A stretch of DNA of 64,000 nt from Halobacillus amylolyticus. Its GTDB lineage: Bacteria; Bacillota; Bacilli; Bacillales; Halobacillaceae. The notes beneath the pieces are model-generated. The model made no database searches, had not been told where the DNA came from, and saw nothing but the letters and a program-made list of their open reading frames with translations. This document shows positions 42,888 through 50,253 of the stretch, one piece after another. The position numbers and the translations under genes are program-made. Position 1 is the first letter of the stretch. Each line of letters begins with the position of its first letter. The stretch is from the NCBI RefSeq assembly GCF_022921115.1, contig NZ_CP095075.1, positions 2,864,001-2,928,000 of the forward strand, given 5' to 3'.

Positions 42888-44087
42888 ATGTCGAAGGAAA
42901 TTATAGTGAAAATAAGCGAAAAGCACGTAAATAAGTATAGAAAAGGGTATCCGTTGCTGCACAAAGAGGCGATGATCAATCAACACGAGTTACGGGATGA
43001 GGGCACAACCTTGAAGCTTGTTGATAGAAGAGGAAATTTTATCGGAAAAGCTTACTATGGAAAACAAAACAAAGGTTCTGGCTGGATAGTGACCCGCAAT
43101 GAGTCGGAAGCTATCGATGAGACTCTTTTTAATAAAAAAATTAAACGAGCATTGAAGGATAGAGAGAACTTATTTATGGATCCAGAAACCACAGCCTTTC
43201 GAGTATTCAATGGAGAAGGGGATGGCATTGGCGGTTTTACCATTGATTATTATGCTGGCTACTATTTAATCAATTGGTACAGCGAAGGAATCTATTCATT
43301 TCGTAATCATGTCATCGAATCATTGAAAAGTAATGTTGAATACAAAGCCATTTACCAGAAGAAACGCTTTGGAAAGCAAGGCCAATATATTGAAGAAGAT
43401 GAGTTTGTCGCTGGAGAGCGTGGGGAGTTTCCTATTATAGTCAAAGAAAATGGTGTGGATTTTGCTGTCTATTTAAATGAAGGTGCCATGGTAGGGATCT
43501 TCCTTGATCAGCGTGAAGTGAGAAGAGCTATCCGAGATCAGTATGCCAAAGGTAAGACGGTGCTTAACACCTTCTCCTATACGGGTGCCTTCTCAGTGTT
43601 TTCCGCACTTGGCGAAGCATCACATACAACGAGTGTCGATTTAGCGAACCGCAGCTATGCGAAAACGATCGAGAACTTTAGTCTTAATGGGATTGATTAT
43701 GAAGCTCAGGATATTATTGTCGATGACGTATTCAAATACTTTAAATATGCTAAAAAGAAGCAGAAATCGTTTGACCTAGTTATTCTTGATCCCCCAAGCT
43801 TTGCCCGGTCAAAGAAATTCACCTTCCGTGCTGAGAAGGACTATACGAATCTGCTGAAAGAAGCGATTGCGATTACTGAAGAACAAGGTGTCATTATAGC
43901 TTCAACAAACTGCAGCAAATTTGGTATGAAGAAGTTCAAAACATTTATTGATAAGGCTTTTAAAGATGCTTCAGTAGCATATAAGCTGATTGAGGAGTAT
44001 TCGCTTCCTGAAGATTACAAAACGATTTCTGAATTTAAAGAAGGGGATTATCTTAAAGTTGTTTCTATACAATTGCTAAAAGGATAA
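42888..44087 (+). CDS. Class I SAM-dependent rRNA large-subunit methyltransferase (RlmI-like)
   Basis: 399 residues: N-terminal PUA domain (about 1-75), a linker beta-domain, and a Rossmann-type methyltransferase domain from about residue 200. VLNTFSYTGAFSVFSALGEA is the SAM-binding motif I, LVILDPPSFARSKK is motif IV with the catalytic-loop DPPSF, and ASTNCSKFG follows. This layout matches RlmI/YwbD proteins that make 5-methylcytosine in 23S rRNA; exact target not shown. GCAGGAG before ATG. A terminator lies in the leader. Confidence 0.9.
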   Translation: MSKEIIVKISEKHVNKYRKGYPLLHKEAMINQHELRDEGTTLKLVDRRGNFIGKAYYGKQNKGSGWIVTRNESEAIDETLFNKKIKRALKDRENLFMDPETTAFRVFNGEGDGIGGFTIDYYAGYYLINWYSEGIYSFRNHVIESLKSNVEYKAIYQKKRFGKQGQYIEEDEFVAGERGEFPIIVKENGVDFAVYLNEGAMVGIFLDQREVRRAIRDQYAKGKTVLNTFSYTGAFSVFSALGEASHTTSVDLANRSYAKTIENFSLNGIDYEAQDIIVDDVFKYFKYAKKKQKSFDLVILDPPSFARSKKFTFRAEKDYTNLLKEAIAITEEQGVIIASTNCSKFGMKKFKTFIDKAFKDASVAYKLIEEYSLPEDYKTISEFKEGDYLKVVSIQLLKG

Positions 44088-45016: not shown

Positions 45017-45333
45017 TGTGTTTTTCATACTGAGTAGGGGTAATGATTTTTTCTTTATGACGCAAAAGCATCTTTAAGGCCTTCTGTGAGCTTTCTTAGC
45101 AATTAAGGTCTTATGGCATGTCAAATCTATTAAACCGCCTTTAAAAGGCTTTTATTTCATTTAAATTTGACTCGATTGTACATTATTTTAGAACTTTTAC
45201 TCTATTATCCATTCCTGAAGCATTTTCGTAGTTTAGTTCATCTTGTTTTGCTACAGATAAATCCTATAGTTCTTGTTTACAATAACTGTGAGAAAAGGGG
45301 GTAGTTACTAACAGGAGAATAGAATATACAAAA
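45017..45333. other. AT-rich spacer upstream of the partition locus
   Basis: No gene seen. One weak hairpin, GCCTTT/AAAGGC near 45135, followed by TTTTATTTC may be a second terminator. Confidence 0.4.
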
Positions 45334-45490
45334 AAGTGTACTTGCAAACAATTTGTTTTCAAAAAGAACACATTTCAGTTTGCAAGTAAACAAATAAGTA
45401 CGCAAGCTGCTTTTACAGTAGGTGTGCTTATTTGTGTGCAAGAATTCATTTTTGTGTTCTTGCGTGCACAAAAGAACACGCAAAAAGGCA
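45334..45490. repeat. Iteron-like repeat cluster, candidate centromere (parC) of the actin operon
   Basis: Six copies of a short YGCAAG/A motif, in both orientations, begin at 45341 (CTTGCA), 45381 (TGCAAG), 45401 (CGCAAG), 45437 (TGCAAG), 45459 (CTTGCG) and 45479 (CGCAAA). Neighbouring starts are about 20 or 40 bases apart, roughly two or four helix turns. TACTTGCAAAC (45339) and GTTTGCAAGTA (45378) form a perfect 11-bp inverted pair. AAGAACAC occurs at 45364 and 45472 and inverted at 45454. The cluster ends at the promoter of the actin gene, the place where ParR-type adaptors bind in plasmid systems. The repeats are seen; the centromere role is inferred. Confidence 0.6.
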
Positions 45491-45492
45491 CA

Positions 45493-45521
45493 TTGACTAT
45501 TATGAGAAATTTTAATATGTT
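45493..45521 (+). promoter_or_regulatory. Sigma-A promoter of the actin operon
   Basis: TTGACT, 17 bases, TATGTT. It abuts the last YGCAAG-type repeat, so a protein bound to the repeats would also control transcription. Confidence 0.6.
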
Positions 45522-45581
45522 TGATATAGAGGCAGGTTATCTCTAGTAACCTACTGTTTGAAATAAAAAGGAGAGTTTAAA

Positions 45582-46751
45582 ATGACAAAATCAAGAATTG
45601 CAGCTGTTGATGTAGGAAATGATGCAGTAAAAGCAAATTTCGGAAAATTGGAATCTGAACTATATATCCCTAATGTCATTGCAAGAGACTTAGAAGATCG
45701 CCCTGTTATAGGCATTGAAGATCTAGATGACAAGGACCCACTCGACAACTTACATATACGTGTCCATTCACCGGCACTCGCTGAAAATAATGCTATCTAT
45801 CGTGTAGGAAACCTTGCAGCAAAAAGTGACAACTCTACAGAGCTTGATCCTGGGAGCAGTAAATCAGAGGAAGATCAAACACTTGTAATGCTATTTGCAT
45901 CTCTAGCAATGGATTCAGTAGCTAATAAAGATGCTAAATCCTCAAAGAATAATGTTGTCGAGGCTAATTACACATTAGGAACAGGGTTGCCTCTCCGTGA
46001 AGTTAAAGAAGGCAAAGACGTAGGCTATCGTTCACAACTTCTAGGCTCTGTGCATCAAGTTGAATTTCTCGTTACACCGAAATACCAAGGTATGAAAGTG
46101 AATATCAAATTCGATGAAGTCAAAGTGTACCCTGAGGGATTTGCAGCGTTCGTTAACCTTGTTATGGATAATGACCTTACTATCATTAATAAGGACTTGA
46201 TTGATAAGCAAATCCTTATTCAGGATATCGGTGGTCTATCTACTGATATTGCGGTGATTAGAAATAGAAATGTAGACGATGATAAGGCTCAGGGCTTTAA
46301 CCTTGGTGTGGCAGAATCGTTGGAGCAGATCAGAGAGGAAATCTTGACGAAACATGGAGTGGAGTTAGACAGTCGTCGTGATGTGGTCGACATTATCACA
46401 AGGAAAAATGATCGTCATCACATTATGGTTAGGGGAAGCCGTACAAGTGTCCATGACATTACAGATCGCATTTTGTTGGAATTGGCTAAAAAGCAATACC
46501 GCTTTTTAAGAAATGTATGGCAGAAAAACTCTCAGTCCGAGATTTGCTATTTTGTTGGCGGTGGATCTGCTGTACTGAAAGACTACATTAAAACACTTAA
46601 CAATAAACTGGATGGCTTCAACATTGACTTTTTTGAAGATGAAAATGAAAGCATTTGGATGATGGCCAATGCGTATTATAAGCTCATTTCTGACTTCGTG
46701 CGTAAATCTGAGAAAGAAAACAAGAAAACAGAAGTTACTCCATCAAAGTAA
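45582..46751 (+). CDS. ParM/StbA-family actin-like ATPase
   Basis: Filament-forming actin homologue of the plasmid segregation type. 389 residues with actin-fold nucleotide motifs: phosphate-1 VDVGNDAVKANFG (9-21), phosphate-2 IQDIGGLSTDIAVI near residue 214, and the adenosine motif YFVGGGSAVLKDYI near residue 326. AAGGAGAG precedes the ATG. A ParR-like gene follows after 9 bases, and a repeat cluster with a promoter lies upstream: the full three-part layout of a type II partition locus. Homologues are known on Bacillus plasmids and, as orphans, on some chromosomes; which replicon this one serves cannot be told. Confidence 0.85.
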   Translation: MTKSRIAAVDVGNDAVKANFGKLESELYIPNVIARDLEDRPVIGIEDLDDKDPLDNLHIRVHSPALAENNAIYRVGNLAAKSDNSTELDPGSSKSEEDQTLVMLFASLAMDSVANKDAKSSKNNVVEANYTLGTGLPLREVKEGKDVGYRSQLLGSVHQVEFLVTPKYQGMKVNIKFDEVKVYPEGFAAFVNLVMDNDLTIINKDLIDKQILIQDIGGLSTDIAVIRNRNVDDDKAQGFNLGVAESLEQIREEILTKHGVELDSRRDVVDIITRKNDRHHIMVRGSRTSVHDITDRILLELAKKQYRFLRNVWQKNSQSEICYFVGGGSAVLKDYIKTLNNKLDGFNIDFFEDENESIWMMANAYYKLISDFVRKSEKENKKTEVTPSK

Positions 46752-46760
46752 GGTGATTAA

Positions 46761-47351
46761 ATGAGTAACACCAAGAAGAGTGTTGAGCGGGGACAGTCCA
46801 TTACGTTTCGTGTTCCTTCCGACACTCCTGATCACTTATTGAAGCAATTGACCGAGCTTAAAGAAAAAGAAAGAAGAAACTTTTCAAGTAAAATTGCACA
46901 ATACGTTATGGATGGGGTTAGTGAATCAATTTCTAAAGAAAAAGAAACAGTCACAATCCCACTACCTAGAAAACTGACGAAAGAACAACGAAGCTGGATG
47001 AAGCATGAGCATTCTGAAGCGCTAATGGGAAGCATCATCTACCAGCTTATGATCGATCCAACAAGAGCAATGACACTTTTAGCCTCACTAAACAGTAACT
47101 CCGTAGATATCAACGACGCATTGTATTTACAAGAAGAAACAGCAGCAACAATGTCAAATGTTGAATATGAAGTGCAAAAAGAACCTGATGTTACTGAAGA
47201 AGCTGAAATGGAATTTGATGATAGTGCTCTAGATGACTTAAGCCTTGATAATCTTCATGGTGAACTGCATCAAAATCAGAGTGAAGAGCAAGGGGAAAAA
47301 GAGGAAGATGATGACCTTCTTGGTGATTTTCTGTCCAGTATGAATAAATAA
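46761..47351 (+). CDS. ParR-like DNA-binding adaptor of the actin operon
   Basis: 196 residues, not closely recognised. The N-terminal 55 residues look like a ribbon-helix-helix domain: a strand with QSITFRVPS, then two helices (HLLKQLTELKEKERR and SSKIAQYVMDGVSE). The middle is helical; the C-terminal third (from about 135) is strongly acidic, ending DDDLLGDFLSSMNK, a tail that could contact the actin filament. AAGGTG before ATG, 9 bases after the actin gene, and a terminator follows. ParR function is inferred from fold and position. Confidence 0.7.
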   Translation: MSNTKKSVERGQSITFRVPSDTPDHLLKQLTELKEKERRNFSSKIAQYVMDGVSESISKEKETVTIPLPRKLTKEQRSWMKHEHSEALMGSIIYQLMIDPTRAMTLLASLNSNSVDINDALYLQEETAATMSNVEYEVQKEPDVTEEAEMEFDDSALDDLSLDNLHGELHQNQSEEQGEKEEDDDLLGDFLSSMNK

Positions 47352-47356
47352 TACCG

Positions 47357-47390
47357 AGAGCCAAAAGCCTATAAAGCTTTTGGCTCTTTC
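47357..47390 (+). terminator. Terminator of the actin partition operon
   Basis: Perfect 12-bp stem AGAGCCAAAAGC / GCTTTTGGCTCT with a 7-nt loop, then TTC. Confidence 0.85.
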
Positions 47391-47441: not shown

Positions 47442-47471
47442 AAAGAACTGCTATAATTATAGCAGTTCTTT
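47442..47471. terminator. Perfect hairpin terminator at the end of the zinc-ribbon gene
   Basis: A 30-bp perfect palindrome, AAAGAACTGCTATAA plus its complement, followed by TTTT on the plus strand and overlapping the stop of the minus-strand gene. Confidence 0.8.
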
Positions 47472-47716
47472 TACAATGGGTTATGGTCGGCAAAGGCAAG
47501 AAAAGTTCTCTCTTCTTCAATTAATCCACAAGCTCCGCATTGGACTTTATATTCCGGGCCTCTATAGTCCATATGGAAGGTAGCTAATTGGCCAGTATCG
47601 CATTCTGATAGGACTTCACCAGTTTTGGGGTCCAGTTTAACTGAAGTAGAAAGTTGTTTGATTTTATTAAATCTGGAACGGTTCGTCTTGCAGTTAGGGC
47701 ATAAATATGGATGCAT
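47471..47716 (-). CDS. Zinc-ribbon protein of unknown function
   Basis: 81 residues from ATG 47716, set by GGAGGTG before it. Two cysteine pairs, LCPNCKTNRSRF at the start and VQCGACGLIEEE near the end, would bind one zinc. The middle holds KLDPKTGEVLSEC. Similar small proteins occur in Bacillaceae without known role. Single gene; not linked to the actin operon by strand. Confidence 0.7.
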   Translation of the reverse strand: MHPYLCPNCKTNRSRFNKIKQLSTSVKLDPKTGEVLSECDTGQLATFHMDYRGPEYKVQCGACGLIEEERTFLAFADHNPL

Positions 47717-47826
47717 ATTTTTCACCTCCAGGAATTATTTTATACTATTACCCCCTCCTTATACAAAAAGTAGTACAAAATGTTATGAAAACTAACTAAT
47801 CCTACTACATTAACTGAAAAGTCGAC

Positions 47827-48958: not shown

Positions 48959-49870
48959 TTAGGCAGAGGACATTTGGTTCTTTTTGAGCTTTTTATCATG
49001 GTTCATTTTATAGCTCTTTTCTTTTTCTAACGGAGTTAAATAGTCCAATGTAGAATGGAGTCGTTTTTGGTTATAAAAATTGATGTAAAACTGAATGGCT
49101 AGTTTGGCTTCTGCTTTTGTCTCATAAACATGTTTGTACAGGTATTCTTTTTTCAGAGAGGCAAAGAAACTCTCTGCACATGCATTGTCGTAGGGGTTTC
49201 CCTTCCGACTCATACTTATGGTCGCTCCTGCCTCCTTAAGTGTATCTAAATAAGCCTTAGAACAGTACTGAGAGCCACGATCTGAATGGTGAATCCAACC
49301 CGACTTAGGGTTACGAATGGCCAAAGCCTTTTCTAAAGCTTTTAAGCACAGGGTGTGATCCATATGATCGTCTAACTGATAACTTATGATCCGTCGGGAA
49401 GCAAGATCAATGACAGGATTCAGATATAAAAAGCCTTCTCCTGTGTGAATATAAGTAATATCAGTAGCCCAAACCTGGTCTGGGGCCTCTGGAAGAAAGT
49501 CACGGTTTAAATGGTTTGAGTGAATGGTTTCATCGTGATCAGAGTCTGTCGTATTGATGAACTTTTTAGGTGGTGTGGCATAAAGGTCCAGTTCTCTCAT
49601 TCGATTCGTCACTTTCTTTTGAGAAACCTCCACCTGATCCACTTCTCGAAGCATAAAGTGGATGCGAGGGCTGCCGTAACACCCATAATTATCATGATAA
49701 TGGAAGAGGATCCGTTCATCGATATAACGGTTCCAAGCCTCTCTTTTCGTTTCTTCTCTGTCCAGGCGATTCAAATAATCATAATAACCAGATTTAGACA
49801 CACCAAGAACTTGGCACATCCTCGAAATGGTGTGTTCGTGTCGGTGTTCATGAATGAACTCGAACTTCAC
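48959..49870 (-). CDS. IS3-family transposase orfB (integrase domain)
   Basis: 303 residues: an HTH_21 segment (about 40-95, RILFHYHDNYGCYGSPRI in part), then the rve catalytic core with the DDE residues in VWATDITYIHT (first Asp), HHSDRGSQYCS (second Asp) and NPYDNACAESFFASLKKE (Glu). It starts with a GTG in a TAGTG overlap with the orfA stop, so it is translated by coupling or as an OrfAB frameshift product through the run GGAAAAG. Intact. Confidence 0.93.
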   Translation of the reverse strand: MKFEFIHEHRHEHTISRMCQVLGVSKSGYYDYLNRLDREETKREAWNRYIDERILFHYHDNYGCYGSPRIHFMLREVDQVEVSQKKVTNRMRELDLYATPPKKFINTTDSDHDETIHSNHLNRDFLPEAPDQVWATDITYIHTGEGFLYLNPVIDLASRRIISYQLDDHMDHTLCLKALEKALAIRNPKSGWIHHSDRGSQYCSKAYLDTLKEAGATISMSRKGNPYDNACAESFFASLKKEYLYKHVYETKAEAKLAIQFYINFYNQKRLHSTLDYLTPLEKEKSYKMNHDKKLKKNQMSSA

Positions 49871-50175
49871 TACTTTTCCTGATTGAAGATGTGCATGGCC
49901 TTTTTTAAAATGTCGACTTCCTCCTGGAGCTCTACGTTACTTTTTTTCTCTTTTTCATACATTTCCTTGTACTCAGAGGCGGTCAACAGTTGATTCTGTG
50001 CTTCTTTTTCTTCCTTCTTTTTTTGGTCACGATACTCCGTCTTCCATCTTTTAAGGTTACCGTAGGGAATATCGAGTTTCTGACTAAGGTCCGTCATTTT
50101 GTGTCCGTCCAATTCCATTAACTTCACAACATAAAGCTTAAACTCAGGGTCATAATTTCTGTACTTTTGGGTCAA
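49870..50175 (-). CDS. IS3-family transposase orfA (helix-turn-helix)
   Basis: About 101 residues: a helix-turn-helix (TDLSQKLDIPYGNLKRWKTEY) preceded by YRNYDPEFKLYVVKLME, the standard OrfA start, and a C-terminal leucine-zipper-like coiled coil (EKEKKSNVELQEEVDILKKA). The preferred start is TTG 50175, with AAAGGA nine bases before it; the frame stays open to 50235, inside the terminal repeat. Confidence 0.85.
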   Translation of the reverse strand: MTQKYRNYDPEFKLYVVKLMELDGHKMTDLSQKLDIPYGNLKRWKTEYRDQKKKEEKEAQNQLLTASEYKEMYEKEKKSNVELQEEVDILKKAMHIFNQEK

Positions 50176-50253
50176 TGTGAACACGTCCTTTAATGCTTTG
50201 TGATGATTAAAACATGGTTCAATACTTGTGTCCACTTTTTATACTAACTCTAA

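Follow-up and report, generated by a model that had tools for sequence, protein, structure and literature searches.

A conserved ParM/Alp7A-like operon with an upstream repeat array in the origin-left region of Halobacillus amylolyticus and other Bacillales

The window analysed here is a stretch of 64 000 nucleotides of Halobacillus amylolyticus (assembly GCF_022921115.1, contig NZ_CP095075.1, positions 2,864,001 to 2,928,000), and our subject is a two-gene operon within it that encodes a ParM-like ATPase and a ParR-like adaptor and is preceded by an array of short repeats (Table 1). An earlier reading of the sequence alone (the sequence-only reading) had proposed an actin-type partition module at this place, and its array, promoter-like site, ATPase, adaptor and stem-loop were all found where it had put them. 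The proposal is backed by the family matches of the proteins, the operon layout and the conservation of the array.

The operon and its products

The product of parM carries the stretches DVGNDAVK, QDIGGLSTD and VGGGSAV, which we take to be the nucleotide motifs of an actin-fold ATPase. It matches the Pfam families Alp7A_like_C (PF22128; E-value 5e-36, 124 bits against a cut-off of 22), and ALP_N (PF17989; 4e-9, 37 bits against 26.3), and a PHROG 'partition protein' family (6e-39); by the curated cut-off it is a member of the Alp7A family (PF22128). With the ParM equivalog model NF010498 it stays below the cut-off (35.6 bits against 417). The actin-fold ATPase with its nucleotide motifs, as read earlier from the letters, is supported by the presence of the stretches and by the Pfam matches.

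The adaptor gene begins 9 bases after the parM stop codon. A genome scan confirmed 444 encoding loci; the 80 best were retained, and the adaptor gene lies immediately 3′ of parM in every one of these 80. The N-terminal block of the adaptor, RGQxITFRxPSDTPDHLLKQLxxLKExERRNFSSKIAxFVLxGV, fits a strand-helix-helix arrangement, and a predicted model of modest confidence (mean predicted local distance difference test score 64) places helices at residues 24-36 and 41-59, so that a ribbon-helix-helix fold is plausible. The protein has an acidic tail with a conserved end, DDLLGDFLSxMNK, which is a putative ParM contact. Of the earlier description as a ribbon-helix-helix-like protein with an acidic tail, then, the tail is present and the fold is a plausible prediction. 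No match above cut-off was found in Pfam or in other family-model searches; among the 120 listed of its 2053 relatives most are named 'hypothetical' or 'uncharacterized', with 'Plasmid segregation centromere' opening three names and 'Arc-like DNA binding' one. The adaptor is poorly annotated, in keeping with the earlier impression that it is no close match to a familiar ParR.

The upstream repeat array

The repeat unit of the array is a palindromic GTNNAC, degenerate in the window to GYNNRC, with mainly 8/12-bp spacing around a conserved core. The sequence-only reading had correctly seen an array but misread its unit, the YGCAAG/A motif that it described being a local form where relatives use GTNNAC. 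Between positions 45322 and 45571 there are 8 matches to YGCAAR (1.9±1.4 in dinucleotide shuffles, equalled in 1 of 1000) and 10 to GYNNRC (3.2±1.6, reached in none of 1000), while strict GTNNAC, with 3 matches against 1.1 (94 of 1000 shuffles), is not significantly enriched there. When 80 upstream regions were compared with 100 shuffles each (81 loci minus the truncated L084), the GTNNAC count was unmatched by any shuffle in 70, the ten exceptions including the window (7 of 100 shuffles), L034 (37) and L015 (71). Pairwise distances between GTNNAC sites in the relatives peak at 8, 12, 20, 42, 54 and 62 bp. The 11-bp perfect inverted pair reported earlier is present at 45339-45349/45378-45388.

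A conserved core of 31 bases near GTACACATGTTGnTATAnnAGnATGTGTACA was the basis for aligning the 81 loci. Relative to it, GYNNRC sites recur at offsets of -74, -62, -54, -32, -20, -12, 0, +24, +36 and +44, each of these being occupied in 26 to 66 of the 75 loci whose flanks were long enough. The core match beat the maximum of 243 mononucleotide shuffles in 80 of 81 loci (21 genus names), with a matrix trained on the same sequences that it scored. Loss of the repeats from relatives that keep the two genes would have counted against the sequence-only reading by its own terms; the opposite was found. The array is a conserved candidate, by its sequence, for an iteron-type centromere beside the operon.

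No second copy was found when the array was searched by BLAST against its own genome, the next match having an E-value of 0.18. Long GYNNRC chains elsewhere in this genome (G000) were considered as further arrays and rejected, as they are unrelated 21-bp tandem repeats; two such tandem arrays, sharing GAGCGCCGATAAA, lie near the window but outside it, at C1:2833362-2833740 (L165) and 2936148-2936316 (L170). In another genome, G046, 16 linked sites make up the array, other chains in the 400 kb around oriC have at most 3, and the densest other 170-base window there has 6 sites against 15 in the array. The idea of many dispersed arrays near oriC was rejected on these findings in the two genomes.

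Table 1. Features of the operon and its flanks in the window
Feature	Position	Strand	Remarks
Putative centromere/operator-like array, GYNNRC sites (GTNNAC in relatives)	45324..45490	.	mainly 8/12-bp spacing, 24-bp step at core
Array sites	45336, 45344, 45378, 45386, 45398, 45422, 45434, 45462/45464		weaker ones in between
Array core, GTACGC-spacer-GTGTGC	45398..45428	+	best conserved segment; anchor for aligning 81 loci
Promoter-like TTGACT-17-TATGTT	45493..45521	+	adjoins array; consensus match only
ParM/Alp7A-like actin-fold ATPase, 389 amino acids	45582..46751	+	open reading frame, family matches
ParR-like adaptor, 196 amino acids	46761..47351	+	N-terminal ribbon-helix-helix-like segment, helical middle, acidic linker, conserved C-terminal DDLLGDFLSxMNK
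Stem-loop, possible weak terminator	47357..47387	.	14-pair stem

The promoter-like TTGACT/TATGTT pair noted earlier is present. Promoter-like matches were not commoner than in shuffled sequence (5 against 6.2), and likewise terminator-like ones (1 against 1.1). The stem of the terminator noted earlier is also present, although it is on the minus strand that the scan places a terminator; read on the plus strand it would be weak, because the tail there is only TTTCAAAT. Convergent with the operon is a small zinc-ribbon-like gene (47471-47725, minus strand), and in 19 of the 81 loci similar genes form a downstream cluster. Farther on, two open reading frames (48959-50235, minus strand) read by eye like an IS3-type transposase pair.

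Distribution and chromosomal position

The contig that holds the window (C1, 4,154,097 bp, of a 4.30-Mb genome in two contigs) also bears dnaA and rpmH, which settles as chromosomal the choice between chromosome and megaplasmid that had been left for checking; the locus does not lie on a plasmid as a plasmid partition locus would. Conservation in related chromosomes, also left for checking, is extensive. Orthologues occur in all 11 genomes of the genus, its own included (91-97 % identity in the ten relatives), and the closest named relatives are Halobacillus. An even sample of the order (397 genomes) has 208 that match parM at 1e-10; by a hand count these comprise 201 with strong ParM orthologues (E-value below 1e-190) and 7 with weak matches only (4e-20 to 2e-13), with nothing between 4e-20 and 3e-195. 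A sample of the class has 43 of 398 genomes matching at 1e-40, and 8 genomes beyond the order, each in family f49 or f73, have an orthologue below 1e-190. In 38 of 38 genomes ParM exceeds the product of the neighbouring gene at 42888-44087 in conservation (median identity 82 against 64.5 %). Its ratio of non-synonymous to synonymous substitution rates (dN/dS) is 0.019-0.030 against three genus relatives, dS exceeding 1.7 for two of these; the ratio was computable in these three of seven pairs, and dS was not in the other four. The operon is an old chromosomal system that has been strongly conserved and is native to much of the Bacillales. Apart from parM and the adaptor gene, any gene cluster within 8 kb is common to at most 23 of the 81 loci, and a function could not be assigned from gene neighbourhood. 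We note also that more distant ParM relatives occur in the genus: one (L002, C2:89271-89648; 25 % identity, E-value 1e-4) on the second contig of the H. amylolyticus genome (about 145 kb, possibly a plasmid), and two on dnaA-bearing contigs of other genomes (L013 in G010 and L014 in G004; 26-27 % identity).

The position of the operon was mapped in 46 genomes (22 genera) that were selected because they had a parM match and few contigs. In all 46, parM is on the dnaA contig, to the left of dnaA and transcribed opposite to it, at a distance of 35.6-303 kb (median 94 kb; the value for G016 rests on a rounded genome size, and contig ends of origin-linearised genomes were estimated from rpmH). Each mapped genome has one strong parM copy, and ParM identity across the 45 other genomes is 76-97 %. 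The single control gene, the methyltransferase-like open reading frame at 42888-44087, was found in 39 of the 46, of which 26 have it in the same zone (Fisher p 1e-5, phylogeny not corrected). Part of the fixed position of parM is regional synteny, yet parM was never outside the zone and the control gene was outside in 13 of 39. Two genomes outside the order share the side and orientation, with parM 56 kb from dnaA in G639 and, in G565, close to the end of a contig whose first gene is dnaA. The sequence-only reading had placed the module among ordinary metabolic genes, which is true but masked the main point, the fixed zone left of oriC. In B. subtilis the segment trapped in the forespore is centred slightly left of oriC and the ram sites of RacA lie mainly within 250 kb to its left (PMC4949633).

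ParM relatives are encoded in 33 plasmid records, with identities of 36-44 % in most (maximum 43.5 %). Plasmid ParM/StbA operons of this two-gene order occur in Bacillaceae and Paenibacillus, that of pBM69 (L120) being an example. In 12 cousins that were fetched, a small gene follows parM and encodes an adaptor of 109-151 amino acids, as against 196 here. Plasmid adaptors are homologous to residues 11-106 of the chromosomal adaptor (E-value 7e-17) and many have an acidic C-terminus, but the tails differ, five of the 12 ending in TFL(N/D)F and a run of D. The cousins also have few half-sites, with 0-6 GTNNAC in the 350 bp upstream, a count that may be too low for those with GC-variant sites. 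In a tree of 24 of the 81 chromosomal rows and 12 plasmid rows, the latter with long branches among them, the chromosomal and plasmid ParMs lie on two sides of a branch with support of 94/91.

Possible roles of the operon

By its sequence the locus has the make-up of a type II (ParMRC-like) partition system, with an actin-fold ATPase, an adaptor in the same operon and an iteron array beside it. The Alp7A/Alp7R system of B. subtilis plasmid pLS20 has a comparable layout, Alp7A being accompanied by a small DNA-binding partner and an upstream DNA site. The ATPases share an Alp7A-like C-terminal domain, a likeness drawn through PF22128; unlike the pLS20 system, the present operon is chromosomal, origin-left and has one strong copy per mapped genome. 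RacA with ram and ParABS with parS, in B. subtilis, act on the origin or the region to its left, as the operon is proposed to do, although RacA and the ParABS proteins are not actins; RacA-like genes and parS-like sites are also present in genomes that have the operon. Chromosomal ParMs are already in print: a 2025 paper (PMC12270681) describes Dh-cParM1, Cb-cParM and Bt-cParM, encoded in ParM-ParR cassettes with genus-level conservation and their function left open. The present ParM is likewise chromosomal and conserved among related species. It barely matches Dh-cParM1 (E-value 0.009); Bt-cParM is described as conserved in Bacillus. A term search of the main text of that paper (oriC, origin, synteny) met no statement on origin proximity, nor, there and in its sections 4 and 13, any order-wide spread of a ParM.

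Taking as observed the operon, its family, the array, its conservation, its chromosomal location and its fixed zone left of oriC, we favour, with a probability of roughly 0.58, a chromosomal ParMRC-like system that would position the origin-left domain beside ParABS. The anatomy of the locus suggests that the adaptor works on the array and the filaments on the adaptor. The adaptor, probably a ribbon-helix-helix dimer, would load cooperatively on the array, repress the adjoining promoter and offer its acidic C-terminus to ParM, which would polymerise with nucleotide; the array-bound adaptor would capture the filament ends. Filaments might then drive the two sister copies of the region left of the origin apart, or pull or anchor them, in growing cells, when sporulation begins, or both. 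The fixed zone suggests the chromosome as cargo, and since parS-like sites lie beside the origins of both genomes examined, the operon would act beside ParABS. The branch of the sequence-only reading that survives is its 'chromosomal segregation or cytoskeletal system'.

Weighing against the proposed chromosomal role is that, over 400 kb of its own genome, GYNNRC density in 170-base windows fails to single out the array, which has 10 sites against 9, 9, 8 and 8 elsewhere (those with 9 at tandem repeats). The array could instead be just the autoregulatory operator of the adaptor, with ParM filaments unrelated to chromosomal DNA (serving cell shape, membrane or division) and the zone reflecting high gene dosage. 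The array does adjoin a promoter-like site, no long array other than that of the operon was found in the 400 kb around oriC in G046, and origin proximity is common among growth genes; there is also precedent in a bacterial actin family that acts in cell morphology (PMC12645912). We nevertheless think this unlikely, since the arrays are long and regular, with 6-16 GTNNAC in the 470 bp upstream at 25 loci, which exceeds the needs of a simple operator; the 12 plasmid cousins have 0-6 in 350 bp, with the caveat on variant sites given above.

The plasmid cousins raise the quite unlikely alternative that a resident locus causes partition incompatibility with related plasmids that enter the cell, or acts for them in trans; their shared operon and the Discussion of PMC12270681, which leaves a plasmid role open, would favour this, but the two forms are separated by a branch and differ in their adaptor tails, and a fixed zone left of oriC would not be expected from it. 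Nor is the operon itself credible as a captured plasmid, prophage or integrative and conjugative element. Despite the transposase-like frames nearby and the occurrence of the ParM family on plasmids, the 'captured plasmid piece' of the sequence-only reading fails, as orthologues 76-97 % identical across genera share one chromosomal zone in 46 of 46 genomes and the plasmid relatives reach at most 43.5 %; a phage origin was excluded when a search of a phage collection gave no ParM match. A role confined to sporulation, orienting or anchoring the origin-left arm in the forespore and complementing or replacing RacA, we regard as very unlikely. The zone coincides with the domain of RacA (PMC4949633), and all 10 genomes of the order sample above the cut-off of the RacA model NF009648 (genus g45, family f43) lack this ParM; Spo0A is found in 391 of the 397 genomes, and five of the six without it also lack parM. 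However, weaker RacA-like matches coexist with parM (as in G250 and G281), the TTGACT/TATGTT pair looks vegetative, and six Spo0A-negative genomes, one of which carries parM, are too few. The distribution cannot separate a sporulation role from one in growth.

More tentatively, and with the odds somewhat against it, the positioning system that we favour could amount to an actin 'spindle' in about half an order: filaments of the operon's own ParM would move or anchor a centromere that lies to the left of oriC and carries bound adaptor, and together with ParABS they would segregate or orient the chromosome. If true, it would be a counterpart of RacA and, to our knowledge, the first actin-driven bacterial chromosome segregation system. 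The operon offers a testable case, being a single conserved operon with a defined array, in a zone by oriC and in many named cultured species of Bacillaceae, and would be informative either way, as a chromosome mover or as an origin-dosed cytoskeleton. Bacteria with this operon may use actin to push their chromosome or to anchor it.
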